NCBI GenBank assembly: GCA_025360005.1
Contig: JANYDA010000017.1
Coordinates: forward strand, 1 to 64,000
Reading direction: 5' to 3'
Source: Fibrobacteria bacterium
GTDB lineage: Bacteria; Fibrobacterota; Fibrobacteria; UBA11236
Length of the DNA stretch: 64,000 nt
Position 1 is the first letter of the stretch; each line of letters begins with the position of its first letter. Shown here piece after piece: positions 32,022 through 50,632 of the stretch. The notes below the pieces were generated by a model. The model made no database searches. It was not told the DNA's origin and was given only the letters and a program-made list of their open reading frames with translations. The position numbers and the translations under genes are program-made.

Positions 32022-33788
32022 TCAAATCCTGGATTGATAGGTGAAGAGTTGGAAGTAACGGCCCTGCGCGGCGATCAATTCGTCATGCGTGCCGCGCTCG
32101 ACGATCTTTCCGGCTTCCACCACCAGGATGGCGTCCGCCCGGCGGATGGTGGACAGGCGATGGGCGATGACGAAGGTGGTGCGACCGCGCATCAGGCCCG
32201 CCAGGCTTTCCTGGATCAGCATCTCGCTTTCCGCGTCCAGGTTGGAGGTGGCTTCGTCCAGGAAGAGGATGCGCGGATTGGCCAGCAGGGCGCGGGCGAT
32301 GGCCACGCGCTGGCGCTGGCCCCCGGAGAGCTTGACGCCGCGCTCGCCGATCAAGGTGTCCAGGCCCTTTTCCAATCCATCCGTAAAATCCTTGAGGTTG
32401 GCCGCCCGTACCGCCTCGGTTACCTCCGTTCCGCTCGCGTCCCTGCGGCCGAAGAGGATGTTGTCGCGGATGGTGCCCTCGAAGAGGAACTCGTCCTGCA
32501 GAACCACGGCCAGATGCTTGCGGTAGCTTTCCAGCTTCACGGTGGCCAGATCGATATCGTCCACCAGGATACGGCCGGAAGTAGGGCGCAGGAAGGAAGC
32601 CGCCAGGCCCGCCAAGGTGGTCTTGCCGGATCCGGAACTGCCCACCAGGGCCGTCACCGTGCCTGCCGCCGCGCGCAGGTCGATGCCGCGCAGGACTTCT
32701 TTGCCGGTCTCGTAGGAAAAAAGCACGTTCTCGAACGCGATCCGGCCTTCCAGGCGATCGAGCGCGCGCGTGCGTTCCGGCTCCCGGCCTTCCGGATCCA
32801 GCTTGAGGATTTCGTCCATGCGGTCCAGCCCGGCGAAAGCCTCCGTCAATTGCGATCCGATGTTGCTCATCTGCACGATGGGCGCCACCAGGAATCCCAG
32901 GTACAGGGTAAAGGAAACGAAATCGCCCACGGAGATGATCCCGTGCAGGATGAAGCGGCCGCCCAGGCCCATGATCAACACGCTGGTCACGCCCAGGAGA
33001 AGCGTGGCGGAGCTGGTCACCAGGCTGGTGGTGGTCATGGACTTGCGCACGTTGCGGAACAGCGTGTCCACGCCGCTCTCGAAGACCTTCACCTCCTGGG
33101 CTTCCGCATGGAAGCCTTTCACCACGCGGATGCCGCCCAGGGTTTCCGTGAGGCGGCCGGTCACCTCCGCCGTGATCTTGCCGCGTTCGCGGAAGATGGG
33201 GCGGATGCGCGAGAAGGCCATGAAGGAGATGAAGCTGAACATGATGAGCGGGAACAGGCTGGCTACGGTGAGCCAGGGGCTGATGCGCAGCAACAGGAAG
33301 AAGGAAACCGCCGCCGTCAATACGCCGCCCAGCAATTGCACCACGCCCGTGCCCACCAGGTTGCGCACGCCTTCCGGATCGTTCATGATGCGGGATAACA
33401 GAACGCCGGACTTGGTGCCGTCGAAGAAGCCCACCGGCAGGCCGATGATATGCTTTTGCATCTGCAGGCGCAGGCGCGAGATGAGATGCTGCGCTTCCAC
33501 CGCCAGCAGGTTGGTCAAGGCAAAGGAGGTGACGGCCTGGACCAGCACCGAAAAGCCCACCGCTCCCAGCAACAGCGCCAGCAGGCGCAAATCGCGATGG
33601 GGAATGACGTCGTCCAGCAGGTACTTGGTGGATCCGGGCAGCACCAGACCGCACAAACGGTTGATGACGATCAGGAGCAGGCCCAGCAGCAGCAGCTTGC
33701 GACGCGGCCAGATGATGGTCAGGAATGCATGGCGGACGGTCCGCAAACCGGGTTTTTTCTTCTTGGCGGAGGCGTTCGGATCGCTCAC
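32022..33788 (-). CDS. MsbA-like ABC exporter (fused membrane and ATPase domains)
   Basis: The 588-residue protein carries an N-terminal ABC transmembrane domain with six helices (about 25-320) and a C-terminal ATPase. The latter has Walker [10 protein letters not shown] (about 381), signature [18 protein letters not shown] (about 484), Walker [14 protein letters not shown] and the switch His in VIAHRLSTI. Such half-transporters act as homodimers and export lipids, lipid-linked glycans or drugs. The substrate cannot be assigned. The ATG overlaps the aldo/keto reductase stop (ATGA), so both genes are one transcript. Confidence 0.92.
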
Positions 33789-39155: not shown

Positions 39156-41702
39156 TCATTTCGGGCGCAGGTAGCCGAAGGTGGCGAACACCGCCGTCTG
39201 CGATTCCTTCACCACCTGGGCTTCCCCTTGCGACCCGCGCTGGGATTCGTTCAAGTGGTTCACCACCACGCCTTTGAGGATGTAGGCTCCCGTGCCCACG
39301 TAGGCTCCGTTGTGGGCGATGGGCAGCCACCGGAAGAACAGTGAGCGGTAGCCGCTCGCGTCCTGCGGGATTTTCGCGATCATGCCTTCCGTCACCTGAC
39401 CCTCGGTCTTGTTGATGAAGTTGCCGATGTGATCGTAGACGAAGAAGGTGTAATGGAAAGCGTACCTGGACTTGATCACCCATTGCGGAATCACCCCCTT
39501 GCGGGTGAATACGTCGTCCGTGCCGGGCGCGCAACTGAGGCAAATCTCGCCCTGGTCGGCCACCCCTACCACGGCGAAGGGGTTCTTGATCGCTTCGGAT
39601 GATGGGGTCGCATTCTCCCTGGAGTGCCGGGATGTAATAAGATTAGTCACCTGGATCACAATCGGATTGGTGAGCACCTGGGGATCCCCTTCCACCGGGA
39701 TACGCTTACCGCCGCCCACGGCGGGATTCCCTGCGGCATCGCGCAAGGCGGGCCCGGCGGACAATACCAGGCTATCGGTATAAACGGGATAGGCGGGGGA
39801 ATTCACGGCGAAGGTCCAGCGGTAGGTATTGCCATTGCCGGCGCCGGGCACCGTCGCCACCGAGGTCACGGCGACCTGGCTGGACTGCGCGCCTCCGTTG
39901 CGGATGATATCGAAGGGCCAGATTAGGCCCGCCTGGACGGCGGCCAGATCGATGGGTTCGCTGAAAGTGATGTCCACGCTGGCCGCATCCTCGGGCGCGG
40001 TCTTGTTGTGCGAGACCGCTTTCATCGGCACCGGCCCAACCGAGTCGGCGATGGCGAAAGCCTGGGCATCGTAGCCCGGCGAACCGGGAAAGAATCCCAG
40101 CATGGCTTTGGCGAAGACGGTCCCCTCCGAGAATTGCTTGTCCGGAAACCGCACCAGCAGGATATCCCGCTCCGCTCCAAAGGCGATGTTGCCGGAAAGG
40201 AAAGTGGCGGGCGTCTTGGCGAACGGATCGATGAGAATGACGGAAGCGGGGAGGGCGGCGGCGGGAATGTCCAGCTTGATCACGGCACCGTCGATACGGC
40301 CGTTTCCGTCCGCATCGATATACACGGCCGTCCCGGAGGCGCCCAAACGCTGGTAGTCCTCCCTCATGGTGAGGCTGGGTTTCCAATCGGTTTGGAAAGC
40401 CTTGGCCTTGAGCGTGGCGGTCTTGGCGAAAGTTAGCCCCGCCGTGTATACGGGGCTGGCGGAGTCGGGTTCGGAGCCGTCCAAAGTGTAGTGGATGACG
40501 GCGCCGGGAGTGGAGTCGCTCAGGGTCACTAGCAGGGAGTTCATGAAAACCTTGCCGGGAGGATCGGCCTTGGGCGTGGCCACCGTCTGTATTTTGGTGA
40601 AGATCTCCGTGACCACATCGCTGTTGCGGAAACCCGGCCGGATGGCGATGATCTTGATGGTGGTGGTTGCGGATAGGGTTATGGGTCCCGTGTATTGCTG
40701 CGAAGAAGCGGTGGGAATGGAACCGTCGGTGGTGTAATAGAGGATGGCGGCCGGGGAAGCATGGCTCGCGGTCACGGAAACCTGGCCTTCGAAGAAACCT
40801 CCCGGGGTAACGATGGGCTTGTCGAGCAGCGGTTCCAGCTCCAGCGTAGTGGTGATGCGAAGCTTAGATGTGCTGGTATGGCGCTCCGCGAAGAAGAAGT
40901 CCAGCGGATATATCAGGCTGTCCTGCAGGCCGTTGGCCGCCGCCACGGTGTCCAGGTTGAAGGACGCGGTCTGTCCGGGATGGATGCCGCCCAAATCGAT
41001 GACGCGCTTGCCGTTGATGAATACCCAGACATCGTCATCCCCCACGAAAGTGAACACCTGGGCCTTTCCCTTGAAATAGGTGAACTTGGCGTGGAACTCC
41101 ATGGTAAAGCCGTAGTCGTGGGTGGAAAGGTCGACCCCGCCTTCGATGCCCGTCAGCAAATTTCCGAAGGGAGGTTTTCCGCTCAATTGCGCATAGGTCT
41201 TGCCCTTATCGAGCGGGAAGAAATTGTCGTCCGCGTAGGTGTATACGCCGGTGGCGGCATTGCGGGTGAATTTCATATCGATGAGGAAGGAACGGTTGAT
41301 GTCGCCGGAGGGCCGGTCGTTGTACCATTCGTCGAAGCGGGCAACGGGCTCAAAGCAGGGTGCTACCCTGGGGTCCAGCGGACTCACCAGCTTGGGACCT
41401 CGATTGTCGCCTTTGAACACCGCCGTATCGCCGAGATCGTTGCCGGTATCGATATCCGATTGGACGACGTTGATGCCCAGCTCCTGGGAGCTGCACGGTT
41501 TTTGATGGGCCTTCCGCCCGTAAAAATGCGGATGCGCCGGAGTCAAGGTGGGATTATCCTCGATGAAATCCCGCACCTTGCCCTTGAGGATCAATTCCGT
41601 AGGACCCGTTTGGCCCAAGGCGGCCCCCGTAGCCGAAAGAAAAGTGAGCGCAAGAAATACGCGGCCCGCAACCCTTATGAAAGCACCCCTGCCTGAATTC
41701 AT
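39156..41702 (-). CDS. Fibro-slime domain protein with chitobiase-type repeats
   Basis: After a signal peptide (VAGRVFLALTFLSATGAALG) comes a fibro-slime domain (TIGR02148; PA14-like): LKGKVRDFIEDNPTLTPAHPHF, later FTFVGDDDVWVFINGKRVIDLGGIHPGQTASFNLD. Two CHB_HEX_C-like units follow (TDGSIPTASSQQYTGPITL and LDGSEPDSASPVYTAGL), then Ig-like domains and a C terminus with FFVYDHIGNFINKTEG. The fibro-slime domain is typical of Fibrobacter succinogenes surface proteins linked to cellulose binding and of myxobacteria/Dictyostelium slime proteins. Start chosen at 41702 after AAGGAACGG; the open frame upstream is not signal-like. It is 848 residues and likely extracellular or surface-bound. Confidence 0.9.
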   Translation of the reverse strand: MNSGRGAFIRVAGRVFLALTFLSATGAALGQTGPTELILKGKVRDFIEDNPTLTPAHPHFYGRKAHQKPCSSQELGINVVQSDIDTGNDLGDTAVFKGDNRGPKLVSPLDPRVAPCFEPVARFDEWYNDRPSGDINRSFLIDMKFTRNAATGVYTYADDNFFPLDKGKTYAQLSGKPPFGNLLTGIEGGVDLSTHDYGFTMEFHAKFTYFKGKAQVFTFVGDDDVWVFINGKRVIDLGGIHPGQTASFNLDTVAAANGLQDSLIYPLDFFFAERHTSTSKLRITTTLELEPLLDKPIVTPGGFFEGQVSVTASHASPAAILYYTTDGSIPTASSQQYTGPITLSATTTIKIIAIRPGFRNSDVVTEIFTKIQTVATPKADPPGKVFMNSLLVTLSDSTPGAVIHYTLDGSEPDSASPVYTAGLTFAKTATLKAKAFQTDWKPSLTMREDYQRLGASGTAVYIDADGNGRIDGAVIKLDIPAAALPASVILIDPFAKTPATFLSGNIAFGAERDILLVRFPDKQFSEGTVFAKAMLGFFPGSPGYDAQAFAIADSVGPVPMKAVSHNKTAPEDAASVDITFSEPIDLAAVQAGLIWPFDIIRNGGAQSSQVAVTSVATVPGAGNGNTYRWTFAVNSPAYPVYTDSLVLSAGPALRDAAGNPAVGGGKRIPVEGDPQVLTNPIVIQVTNLITSRHSRENATPSSEAIKNPFAVVGVADQGEICLSCAPGTDDVFTRKGVIPQWVIKSRYAFHYTFFVYDHIGNFINKTEGQVTEGMIAKIPQDASGYRSLFFRWLPIAHNGAYVGTGAYILKGVVVNHLNESQRGSQGEAQVVKESQTAVFATFGYLRPK

Positions 41703-42027
41703 TTTCCGTTCCTTTTTTCTATAGCGGTATATAAATCCCATAGCGGTATCTAAAGCGCTCCCCTGACGGCATAGCGCGCCTGCGTTGGATGACGGAGTGG
41801 ATCGATGCGCACGGGCCACGATGGATCCGACCCTAAAGCCCCTCAGCCCGGATCGGGTTCGCTCGGCAAAAAAGGCTCCGTTCCACCCCTCGTGGTCCAT
41901 TGCCTGACGGCTATACCGTATGGGACAAAATATCCCGGAAACGGAAATGCAGCATGGGGATCTTTCGAGTTTCTGCTCTGCTAATGTGAGCGGGGTTCCA
42001 GGAGTGTCCTTTTGGACTCTGCCGGGG
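41703..42027. promoter_or_regulatory. Upstream region of the fibro-slime gene with direct repeats
   Basis: No gene is seen. ATAGCGGTAT occurs twice, at 41721-41730 and 41740-41749, that is 19 bases apart, close to two helical turns, just upstream of the fibro-slime ribosome site. A related CTATACCGTAT lies near 41909-41920. These could be sites for a dimeric regulator. Confidence 0.45.
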
Positions 42028-47140: not shown

Positions 47141-47545
47141 ATGGCAAAGATTCTGATTTTCGAGCCGGAAGCGCGGTATCGTCATATGCTGCGTTTCATT
47201 CTGGAAGGCATCAACCATCATATCCTGGATGCCGGCAGTTGGGATCATATCCCCATCCTACTGGCCAATGACACTCCGGACCTGATAATATTGGGCGTCC
47301 ACCTGGGCGAAGAACCGGAAATCCTGTCCTGGCCGGAATGGCAATTGGCCTTGCCGGACGTGCCGACTTTGATCCTCTTCTCCGGCGATCCGGAATTGCG
47401 GGACGGTTTCCTGGATGCTTGGGAAGGGACCCGGTCCATGAACATGATGGTGCAACCCATCGATCCATATCCTCTTTTGGCCATGGTCAAGGCCATGCTG
47501 ACGGCGCCGGTGGAATGGCGCCGCGGCGGGCAGCACGCGGTTTAA
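47141..47545 (+). CDS. Degenerate response-regulator receiver domain
   Basis: The 134-residue protein has the CheY-like fold pattern: KILIFEPEARYRHMLRFILEG, PDLIILGVHLGEE, TLILFSGDPE and MVQPIDPYPLLAMVKAML. The phosphorylation site Asp is Gly (LILGV where LVLLD is usual), the N-terminal acidic pair is E-P-E and the conserved Lys before Pro is Gln. It is therefore a pseudo-receiver that probably cannot be phosphorylated in the usual way. It stands alone without a histidine kinase. The next gene, tail to tail, makes polysaccharide. Confidence 0.75.
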   Translation: MAKILIFEPEARYRHMLRFILEGINHHILDAGSWDHIPILLANDTPDLIILGVHLGEEPEILSWPEWQLALPDVPTLILFSGDPELRDGFLDAWEGTRSMNMMVQPIDPYPLLAMVKAMLTAPVEWRRGGQHAV

Positions 47546-47620: not shown

Positions 47621-49675
47621 TTAAGCGGCCGTGGGGCGGCGCGGCAGCACGGGATTGCCGTGCGCTTCCCTGTGTTCTTCTTCCCGGCCGGCCTCCTGGT
47701 CCCGGTTCGCTCCCATATTGCTGGGGATGTACACCGGGCTCTTCTTCAGCATCACCGCGACCCGGCGGGTCTCCGCATTGGCGCTGATGGAGGTGAAGGA
47801 GAATTTCTGCAGCAGGCGATTGAGTTTCCATTCCAGCGTATGCAGGTTCACGTAATGCTGGAAGGTCTTGACCAGCCCCACGCTTACGCGGCGTTGATCC
47901 TGATCGAGTTCCCAGGGATGGAAATAGACCATGGCGGGATGTCCCTTGCGGTTGCAGGACTCGATGAAACTCTCCGTGACCACGTGCGGGAACAAGCGCA
48001 GGTAACCCCCTCCCGACATAGGCAGGAATTTGTTCCCGACGCCCAAGGTGGACATGGGGAATTCCCGCAGGCTGGCGCCGCTTTGCAAATGCAGGGTATG
48101 CGGCAGACGGTTGGGATAATCCGGGATGCCGTAGCGGTCGCGCTTGATGGGGAAGATGCTGGAATCGTATTCCAGCCCATGCCGGGCCAGGATCTCCAGC
48201 GCCCAATAAGTGCCGGGCACGATGGTGAAATTGGATGCGCGATGGCCGCGGATGGGCTGCGAGGCATGGCGCGAGATCGCCTCCAGCGATTTTAGCAGGT
48301 CTTCCTCGAAGCTGGCCGGCGTCATATCCGTAATGAGGTTGTGGTAATAGCCGTGCGTGCCGATTTCATGGCCTTCCGATGCGATCAGCTTGACCACCTC
48401 CGGGAAGCGATCCGCCACCCACCCCAATATGAAGAACGTTGCCTTGGTTTCCTGTGAACGGAACAGCTCCAGGATGCGCTCGATGTTGCTGATGATGCGG
48501 GTCTCCTGGAGGTGCCAAGTAGAGGGCGGGATCTTCTCCTTGAGATTGTAGGCGTGGAACCAGCATTCCACGTCCACGGTCATGAAATTGCGGACCCGGC
48601 TTTGCGGGCGGGCCAGGTCCACCACCTTGTCCATGTGGATTTCCCGGAGCATGCGGCGCACGCGCGCGCTGGGATCGCGCACGGCCAGGCGGCCCCCCAC
48701 CTGCTTGACGCCGTGGGCCAGTTCCACCAGGAAACCCAGATCCTCCAGATCGAAATCCTTGCGCGGCGTATAGCAGACCTCCAGGGTCTTGAGCCCGCGG
48801 GCGGAAAGGCGCGCCAGGCGCGCGGTGATTTCCGCCGGCCCCTTGCCTTCCAGAACCACGGACCTATCGTCATGATCGAGCTTGACCCATGCCGTAACTT
48901 TGTGGTTACCGTGCTTGCGAGGCGTGCGGGCCAGCAGGTTGAGCAACTTCACGCGCTTGAGGCTGGCCAGATCGCGGGTATCGCCTTCCCTGCGGGGTTT
49001 GATAAGCAGGTAGCCCACCGTGTTCATCAGCACCCACCATTCCATGCGGACCCAGGACCGGAAATGGCTGAAAGAAGCGCGGTAGGAATAATCGAAATAG
49101 GTCTTGCGCACCACGCTGTCCATGCCCTCGTCATAACCGAGCGTGATTTGGGCCAGTCCGGTGAGACCGGGCTTGATCCACAAGGTCCGGTTCTGGTAAT
49201 GCGGGATGGTGCGGCCGAACTCCACCGTGAAATGCGCCCGCTCCGGGCGCGGACCTATGAAGCTCATGTCGCCGCGCAAGATGCTCCAGAACTGCGGCAG
49301 TTCGTCCAGATGCAGGGCGCGCAGCCACCAGCCCACCTTGGTCACGCGCGGGTCCACGCCCTTGGCGGCCAATTGCGGGCCGTTCTTTTCCGCGTCCGCC
49401 CGCATGCTACGGAACTTGGAGATCTCGAACGGCTTCCCGCCCACGTCGGATTTGCGGATGGGCAGGGCTTCTTCGCCGTCCCATCCGTTCTGCAAGCGGC
49501 GCTCGCGCTTATTGATGCCTATCCGCTCCTGGCTATATATGACCGGCCCCGGGCTCTCCAGCTTGATGAGGAGGGCCAGGATGGGGTAACAGAAAACGAA
49601 AGCCCCGGTGCCCACCAGGCCGATGAGGATATCGATAAGACGTTTGACGACGATAACGCTGGGACTGGGTCGCAT
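47621..49675 (-). CDS. Three-domain fusion: polyprenyl-phosphate sugar transferase, STAS domain, polysaccharide deacetylase
   Basis: Residues 1-235 are a bacterial sugar transferase with one membrane helix (LIDILIGLVGTGAFVFCYPILALLIKL) and the catalytic text KFRSMRADAEKN, DELPQFWSILRGDMSFIGPRPER; this enzyme puts the first sugar phosphate on undecaprenyl phosphate. Residues about 260-358 (KLDHDDRSVVLEGKGPAEI to REIHMDKVVDL) have the plan of a STAS domain of anti-sigma antagonists. From about 362 comes a polysaccharide deacetylase with MTVDVECWFHA and HEIGTHGYYHN (metal Asp and His residues) and the DUF3473-like tail of the exopolysaccharide-locus subfamily. The single frame is 684 codons without break. 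It would start and modify an exopolysaccharide; the STAS part may regulate it. Confidence 0.88.
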   Translation of the reverse strand: MRPSPSVIVVKRLIDILIGLVGTGAFVFCYPILALLIKLESPGPVIYSQERIGINKRERRLQNGWDGEEALPIRKSDVGGKPFEISKFRSMRADAEKNGPQLAAKGVDPRVTKVGWWLRALHLDELPQFWSILRGDMSFIGPRPERAHFTVEFGRTIPHYQNRTLWIKPGLTGLAQITLGYDEGMDSVVRKTYFDYSYRASFSHFRSWVRMEWWVLMNTVGYLLIKPRREGDTRDLASLKRVKLLNLLARTPRKHGNHKVTAWVKLDHDDRSVVLEGKGPAEITARLARLSARGLKTLEVCYTPRKDFDLEDLGFLVELAHGVKQVGGRLAVRDPSARVRRMLREIHMDKVVDLARPQSRVRNFMTVDVECWFHAYNLKEKIPPSTWHLQETRIISNIERILELFRSQETKATFFILGWVADRFPEVVKLIASEGHEIGTHGYYHNLITDMTPASFEEDLLKSLEAISRHASQPIRGHRASNFTIVPGTYWALEILARHGLEYDSSIFPIKRDRYGIPDYPNRLPHTLHLQSGASLREFPMSTLGVGNKFLPMSGGGYLRLFPHVVTESFIESCNRKGHPAMVYFHPWELDQDQRRVSVGLVKTFQHYVNLHTLEWKLNRLLQKFSFTSISANAETRRVAVMLKKSPVYIPSNMGANRDQEAGREEEHREAHGNPVLPRRPTAA

Positions 49676-49981
49676 CCTACTCCTTGCGCGCCCGCGCTTC
49701 CGCGGCCGGGACGCATGCCCGGGTCCGAACCCAAATAGTTCCAGGGTCCGGGCGTCGGCGATGCAATCTTAGGGGATGGGCGCCTTTCCTTCCAAGATTT
49801 TTCGTTGTTTGATGCCTCCATTAGGCAATGGCGAATTCAGAGGATGGAATCCCCGGTATTTTGAACACATCCTTTACCCGCGCGTCTTTGCAAAACAGTA
49901 TTTCCCCAGGGGGCTCCAGGGGCGGCCCAAAAAAACAAAACCCCGGACGGACGCCTGGGTGGGAAAACGTGAGGAGTGAAA
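49676..49981. other. Intergenic region between sugar-transferase fusion and dedA
   Basis: No gene is seen in these 306 bases. It must contain divergent promoters for the fusion gene (minus) and dedA (plus). GAGGAG at 49971-49976 is the dedA ribosome site. Confidence 0.4.
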
Positions 49982-50632
49982 ATGCGGGATTGGCTGGTTG
50001 CGAACGGGGTATGGGGGGTTGCGCTGCTGATGTTACTGCAGAATATCCTTCCCGTCTTGCCTTCCGAACTTATCATGCCGCTTTCCGGTTTCCTGGCGTC
50101 TCTGGGCATCCTCCCTATCCATGGCGTGCTGCTGGCAGGCATAGCAGGCTCAGTACTAGGCCATCTGCCTTGGTATTTCCTGGGCTTCGCCCTAGGCGAA
50201 GAAAAGTTGGAACTCTTCGTGGACAGGCATGGACATCGGATCTTCCTGCGCCAAGCGCATGTACGAAAGGCGAAAGAATGGTTCGATAGGAATTCCATCA
50301 AGGCGGTATTGTTGGGCCGCCTTATCCCCGGCTTGCGCACCTGCGTCAATATCCCAGCCGGCACCACGCGGATGCCTTTCATCCCTTATTTCGCCTGCAC
50401 TCTGGCGGGGGATACCGTGTGGACCGCCCTGCTGGGCCTGGGCGGTTATGCCCTGGGACGCGACTACCGCCTTATCGCCGGTTACCTGCATTTGTTCGTC
50501 TGGGTATTGATGGCCGCTGCTTCGCTCTTCCTGGGTTGGGCCTATGTGCGGCGCCACCGTGGGGGAAATCCGCTGCGCGGGCGCGAGAAGGAGCCCAAGA
50601 TATCGGCCAGCGCCGCATCCAGGTTACCGTAA
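49982..50632 (+). CDS. DedA-family membrane protein
   Basis: This 216-residue inner-membrane protein has the DedA (SNARE-associated/VTT) plan: an N-terminal re-entrant segment LLQNILPVLPSELIMPLSGFLAS with the Glu in the P-S-E motif, LGHLPWYFLGFALGEE, FLGR-like VLLGRLIPGLRTCVNIPAG, and two C-terminal helices. DedA proteins are linked to lipid carrier flipping and membrane homeostasis. The ATG at 49982 has GAGGAG seven bases upstream; a GTG at 49976 is too close to it. Its last 91 bases overlap the end of the convergent epimerase gene. Confidence 0.9.
   Translation: MRDWLVANGVWGVALLMLLQNILPVLPSELIMPLSGFLASLGILPIHGVLLAGIAGSVLGHLPWYFLGFALGEEKLELFVDRHGHRIFLRQAHVRKAKEWFDRNSIKAVLLGRLIPGLRTCVNIPAGTTRMPFIPYFACTLAGDTVWTALLGLGGYALGRDYRLIAGYLHLFVWVLMAAASLFLGWAYVRRHRGGNPLRGREKEPKISASAASRLP

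Follow-up and report, generated by a model that had tools for sequence, protein, structure and literature searches.

A predicted phosphoglycosyl transferase joined to a polysaccharide deacetylase through a STAS-like domain in a genus of Fibrobacterota

The fusion gene and its recurrence

The window analyzed here is a 64,000-nucleotide stretch of a Fibrobacteria bacterium genome (GenBank assembly GCA_025360005.1, contig JANYDA010000017.1). On its reverse strand a reading frame runs from 49675 down to 47621, with an ATG start, 684 amino acids plus a stop, and zero internal stops. The features of this gene and of its two flanking genes are as follows.

47621–49675, (-): complete coding sequence of a phosphoglycosyl transferase (PGT), STAS-like and CE4 deacetylase fusion, 684 aa; the start codon is shared by every orthologue and paralogue
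48998–49675, (-): monotopic PGT (PF02397), residues 1–226, with PDB matches to PglC and WbaP chains
49547–49669, (-): sole hydrophobic segment, residues 3–43, containing K11-R12 and Y30-P31 and predicted to be the re-entrant membrane helix of the PGT
49301–49306, (-): D124-E125, the PGT catalytic Asp-Glu dyad, unchanged throughout the fused members and also in separate PGTs
48605–48904, (-): STAS-like domain, residues 258–357, strand/helix order bbababa, with Leu310 at the usual phospho-Ser position
47783–48589, (-): TIGR03006/CE4 NodB-type deacetylase, residues 363–631, active-site columns conserved
47624–47728, (-): variable C-terminal tail, residues 650–684, mostly of low model confidence (pLDDT <50 from residue 653)
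49976–50632, (+): DedA/VTT-domain protein, divergent neighbor, whose best NCBIfam matches are to UptA (undecaprenyl-phosphate transporter), under cut-off; kept in 5/6 genomes
47141–47545, (+): degenerate single-domain receiver, 134 aa, convergent neighbor matching KdpE/PhoB receiver profiles (E 9e-8); kept tail-to-tail in 6/6 genomes

A Pfam scan of the fusion recovers Bac_transf (PF02397; best stretch 79–221, E 9.9e-46), Polysacc_deac_1 (397–480, E 3e-16) and DUF3473 (505–632, E 6e-41), all far over their cut-offs, and the NCBIfam model TIGR03006 (XrtA-system polysaccharide deacetylase) scores 297.5 bits against a curated cut-off of 276.2. Each of the six genomes of the genus contains PGT-deacetylase fusions, which fall into four paralogue groups, A to D, with groups A and B in every genome; the group C copy of G002 and the group D copy of G001 are cut off by contig ends. 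The window copy belongs to group A, and its own genome carries two paralogues, one on contig C23 that is 60% identical over the full length and one on C25 whose middle is shorter. The STAS-like middle is a feature of groups A, B and C, and group D has a short, poorly conserved linker in its place. In a search of 168 genomes of the phylum, the strong TIGR03006 matches in long frames that also hold a PGT all came from this genus, and the related named database records are Fibrobacteres or Fibrobacteria metagenome-assembled genomes.

The start methionine is common to all fused copies, and between group A orthologues dN/dS is 0.07–0.18 for the PGT, 0.11–0.19 for the STAS-like domain and 0.09–0.11 for the deacetylase; all three domains are under purifying selection. 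The corresponding values for the C-terminal tail are 0.25–1.15. Since fusions occur in six genomes and four paralogue groups, and since an identical start and an unbroken domain order are found across the six genomes in groups A, B and C, with these low per-domain values, a frameshift or assembly error joining separate genes is ruled out. The original prediction, made from the window alone, of one frame joining a sugar transferase, a STAS-like domain and a deacetylase of the exopolysaccharide-locus type is thus borne out by the open frame, the Pfam and NCBIfam scores and the recurrence of the architecture in groups A to C throughout the genus.

Genomic context

The neighbors of the window fusion are not polysaccharide genes, and no recognizable polysaccharide locus surrounds any group A, B or D copy examined. 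In the adjoining degenerate receiver the phospho-Asp position is occupied by Gly52, and the MoeA gene next to the receiver is also conserved. In Myxococcus the single-domain regulator EpsW directly activates an initiating PGT (PMC12802240), and the two settings are alike in that an initiating PGT is thought to be controlled by a small receiver-type protein in M. xanthus and a receiver-like gene adjoins the fusion here. They differ in that the Myxococcus PGT, EpsZ, is of the large type and its regulator EpsW undergoes phosphorylation, whereas the receiver-like neighbor in the window lacks the phospho-Asp. By analogy, there may be a regulatory link between the degenerate receiver and the fusion.

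Other genes near fused copies were also noted. A sigma-54 response regulator (L052:6323–7690, (-)) is divergent from the group C fusion and conserved in 4/4 group C loci; it is closest to PrsR (TIGR02915), at 445 bits against a cut-off of 502.6. Within the window, 39156–41900 (-) encodes a protein of 914 aa, fibro-slime-like by eye, in which a PA14 domain and two CHB_HEX_C_1/Fn3_assoc repeats occur, and 32022–33788 (-), ~14 kb from the fusion, encodes an MsbA-like ABC transporter (TIGR02203, 446 bits, under cut-off).

The phosphoglycosyl transferase domain and membrane topology

The PGT part resembles the small monotopic enzymes typified by PglC, in which a Lys-Arg pair and a Ser-Pro break make the helix re-entrant and the whole globular part is cytoplasmic (roles of the Lys-Arg and X-Pro motifs in PMC6133551). 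K11, R12 and P31 are invariant across the fused set, where the mid-helix break is Tyr/His-Pro instead of Ser-Pro, and K87/R89 and the PRPE motif are also kept in every fused member. Neither the four-helix bundle nor the PF13727 domain of large PGTs (WbaP/WcaJ type) was found in the window protein: the Pfam scan gave no PF13727 match and, unlike in large PGTs, the PGT core begins at the N-terminus. PGTs with fused functional domains are a recognized bifunctional class (PMC10942596), and on its sequence the window protein would be classed with them, since it has the PF02397 core, a lone re-entrant helix bearing the Lys-Arg and X-Pro motifs, the Asp-Glu dyad and an extra domain. It departs from them in its partner, a CE4 deacetylase usually attached via a STAS-like domain.

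A hydropathy scan detects a single hydrophobic segment per fused protein, within residues 3–43, in agreement with the one helix predicted originally. The stand-alone TIGR03006 relatives from other Fibrobacterota and from planctomycetes start ~5–20 residues before the catalytic motif and have no signal peptide, and four fibrobacterial stand-alone deacetylases that were scanned contain no hydrophobic segment. (Query boundaries in the comparisons with stand-alone and planctomycete deacetylases may be slightly shifted, which leaves the matches unaffected.) Since the sole hydrophobic segment corresponds to the PGT re-entrant helix and the relatives lack signal peptides, the deacetylase is expected on the cytoplasmic face. 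A periplasmic location is not supported. The original prediction had reasoned that deacetylases usually act in the periplasm, so that a single helix would create a topology conflict; for the TIGR03006 family that premise finds no support, and with a PglC-like helix and relatives without signal peptides the conflict therefore largely disappears.

The STAS-like middle domain

In the full-length protein the middle region gives only a marginal STAS match (PF13466, E 0.007, under the gathering score). Scanned alone, all 11 middle domains of groups A to C match both STAS_2 and STAS (best E 9.5e-6 and 1.6e-4), although the window's own domain lies under the Pfam gathering scores (20.3 vs 29.2 and 16.9 vs 22.6 bits). 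A profile of the domain weakly matches the PDB chains TM1081, RsbV, TM1442 and SpoIIAA, with a non-STAS top match that is no stronger. A structure model of the domain has a mean pLDDT of 67 (~80 in the core), and its best 11 PDB matches in Foldseek are all STAS proteins (probability 0.87–1.00, E 0.0095 or worse). The full-length AlphaFold model, with a mean pLDDT of 52, was used for secondary-structure order only and not for domain contacts. From the family matches, PDB profile matches and fold search we take the middle to be a divergent STAS fold, as was proposed originally, with the qualification that the window domain by itself falls short of the curated profile thresholds.

The serine phosphorylated in SpoIIAA and RsbV is the one following the Asp of the DS-x-G motif. 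Its position aligns with Leu310, which is invariant in groups A to C, and this speaks against a canonical phospho-switch STAS domain of the anti-anti-sigma type. A fusion can exist without the domain, which is missing from group D and from a planctomycete fusion (below); the domain is most likely a spacer or a dimerization or partner-docking module and not a phosphorylated switch.

The deacetylase domain

The CE4 catalytic residues (Asp, two His, Arg, Asp, His) are present in the fusion, and D368, E370, H441, H445, R479, D504 and H586 are kept in every fused member; motif 1 has Cys371 where the usual VED(Y/W)F has Asp. Since the known catalytic residues of both domains are retained in every fused member, both enzymes are probably active. 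TIGR03006 is named for exopolysaccharide/exosortase loci, in which deacetylase and sugar transferase are both cluster members (PMC1569441). The fusion resembles XrtA-system deacetylases in its score and its intact catalytic residues, and is unlike them in its covalent union with an initiating PGT and in Cys371. An exosortase is encoded in 6/6 genomes of the genus; that of the window genome is on contig C20, and the window copy therefore lies outside the exosortase locus.

On the same contig C20 (L040:6821–8536, ~63.8–65.5 kb) is a 572-aa deacetylase-GT2 fusion in which the CE4 residues are gone (D to S, H441 to A, H445 to P, H586 to M). A 609-aa planctomycete protein (L118) has the same order and also seemingly lacks the first Asp and first His, and this type is possibly a conserved pseudo-deacetylase-glycosyltransferase.

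PGT-deacetylase pairing in planctomycetes

In a Roseimaritima metagenome-assembled genome the PGT and deacetylase are separate adjoining genes in the same order, 11 nt apart. Across 58 genomes of its planctomycete order, 25 loci exceed the TIGR03006 cut-off, and in 20 of these a PF02397 PGT is directly upstream on the same strand, with 173–563 nt between the domain matches (counted by eye from match coordinates). By a rough estimate assuming ~4 PGTs in a 6-Mb genome, such a neighbor would occur by chance at about one locus in several thousand. One planctomycete, G171, has the two as a single 578-aa frame with no STAS domain. In trees of the PGT and of the deacetylase both G171 domains group with planctomycete sequences, from which we conclude that the fusion arose twice. 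In G185 the pair, 15 nt apart, is followed by GT4, GT2, Wzy-type protein and ABC-2 permease genes, and in G174 an exosortase gene is located ~8 kb upstream.

It had originally been proposed that no protein with this domain order had been described. Our literature searches found no PGT-deacetylase architecture with or without STAS, although the main survey of PGT architectures was outside their reach and may list it; the order is nonetheless shared by all six genomes of the genus, and the pairing itself is widespread as neighboring genes in planctomycetes.

Stand-alone relatives in Fibrobacterota

In the sister genus g2 the deacetylases carry traces of a PGT. The G008 protein (L064:7830–9104, (-)) starts with a PGT helix remnant, MRIIEMMGGAGGLALWVLTYPLLALLIRL..., that keeps the TYP break and matches the PGT with E ~1e-4 in a small search, and in G007 the remnant is further eroded. 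In the deacetylase tree the g2 domains group with group C, nested inside the fused set (support 97/96), implying that g2 lost the PGT from a fused ancestor, although a single clade of all fused proteins is not rejected (p-AU 0.118). In the PGT tree the nearest separate PGT belongs to a different family within the order. The G008 deacetylase, which retains only the membrane helix of the lost PGT, amounts to a natural test of how this enzyme is anchored in the membrane.

In other Fibrobacterota families the stand-alone deacetylase mostly has no PGT within the ~10 kb examined, with one exception ~2.7 kb away on the opposite strand. In three families it ends a same-strand run of a GT2-like gene, an ArnA-like formyltransferase gene and the deacetylase (L101:7308–10080, L102:7870–10600 and L103:7875–10667; family scans were made on L101, and L102 and L103 were judged by sequence resemblance). 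This layout recalls ArnC-ArnA-ArnD.

Proposed function and alternatives

We favor, with modest confidence, a bifunctional initiating enzyme in which the PGT loads an N-acylated sugar and the tethered deacetylase then removes the acyl group. The N-terminal PGT would dip into the inner membrane from the cytoplasm via its re-entrant helix and, drawing on a UDP-sugar, load undecaprenyl phosphate with a sugar-1-phosphate that is N-acylated, probably N-acetylated. The CE4 domain at the C-terminus would then take the acyl group off this lipid-linked sugar at the same cytoplasmic membrane face, so that a free amino sugar on undecaprenyl diphosphate is in place when chain extension begins. Loss of the acyl group would favor the forward direction of the reversible PGT step, and may also mark the lipid intermediate for its own pathway and commit the carrier; the STAS-like domain probably orients, dimerizes or docks. 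In favor of the bifunctional reading are catalytic residues that never vary among the fused members, purifying selection on all three domains, the pairing of PGT and deacetylase in planctomycetes, the PGT helix remnant in g2 and the absence of export signals; the DedA/UptA-like neighbor in 5/6 genomes, as a candidate for lipid-carrier recycling, also counts for it. Counting against it are Cys371, the absence of a recognizable polysaccharide locus around the group A, B and D copies examined, and the stand-alone Fibrobacterota deacetylases, which usually lack a nearby PGT and in three families follow a formyltransferase gene.

There are precedents for the chemistry. ArnC is a GT2 family transferase, and ArnD deformylates the lipid-linked sugar after ArnC has acted. 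GpgD deacetylates GlcNAc-phosphatidylglycerol and is predicted to be cytoplasmic (PMC12713373), and for HexSDF of C. difficile, a related system, the authors weigh both outside and inside deacetylation sites (PMC10128005). ArnC-ArnD (lipid-linked Ara4N) and GpgS-GpgD (GlcN-phosphatidylglycerol) are like the proposed reaction in that an N-acyl sugar is placed onto a membrane lipid and then N-deacylated; they are unlike it in that the enzymes are separate, the transferases are GT2 (ArnC) and GT4 (GpgS) and neither is a PGT, and the deacylases fall outside TIGR03006.

The two activities might instead be merely co-localized, with the deacetylase acting later in the cytoplasm on an extended lipid-linked oligosaccharide, or on the UDP-sugar before transfer. 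Common membership of deacetylase and sugar transferase in the loci for which TIGR03006 is named (PMC1569441) and the occurrence of related deacetylases without a nearby PGT would both fit, but the partner is specifically an initiating PGT, adjoining and in fixed order in 20/25 planctomycete loci, and has been fused twice independently; we regard co-localization alone as unlikely, though deserving of serious consideration. A partner-switching role for the STAS-like domain, with phosphorylation controlling whether the PGT is active, is quite unlikely. The fold of the domain would suit that role, and the conserved pseudo-receiver next door together with EpsW activation of a PGT (PMC12802240) makes regulated initiation plausible, but the phospho-Ser position is the invariant Leu310, no kinase or phosphatase gene was recognized beside any fusion copy, and group D and the planctomycete fusion do without the domain.

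The removed acyl group could also be formyl, since in three Fibrobacterota families a GT2 gene and an ArnA-like formyltransferase gene precede the stand-alone deacetylase, all on one strand, and ArnD is a NodB-fold, membrane-associated esterase acting as a deformylase (PMC10967932). An Arn-like route that adds and removes a transient formyl, with the fused domain as N-deformylase rather than deacetylase, is nevertheless quite unlikely: no formyltransferase gene was recognized next to those fused copies whose neighbors were listed, and no ArnD model was among the Pfam or NCBIfam matches of the fusion.

Implications

Bifunctional PGTs are already known as a class, and we regard the CE4 deacetylase partner as the probably new part, with the conserved pairing giving it its interest. 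Placing the deacetylase on the cytoplasmic face would remove an apparent topology paradox for CE4 enzymes, and gives a likely place and substrate to the TIGR03006 deacetylases, which apart from this are known just from polysaccharide loci associated with exosortases. The pairing, conserved and twice fused, predicts that the first sugar is deacylated before chain growth. More broadly, we see an even chance that planctomycetes and some Fibrobacterota use a two-step PGT and CE4 module to start surface polysaccharides with an undecaprenyl-diphosphate-linked free amino sugar at the cytoplasmic face. Initiating PGTs decide which pathway receives the scarce lipid carrier, and such a module, if real, would represent a previously unrecognized lipid intermediate and a means of reserving the shared carrier lipid for a single pathway.
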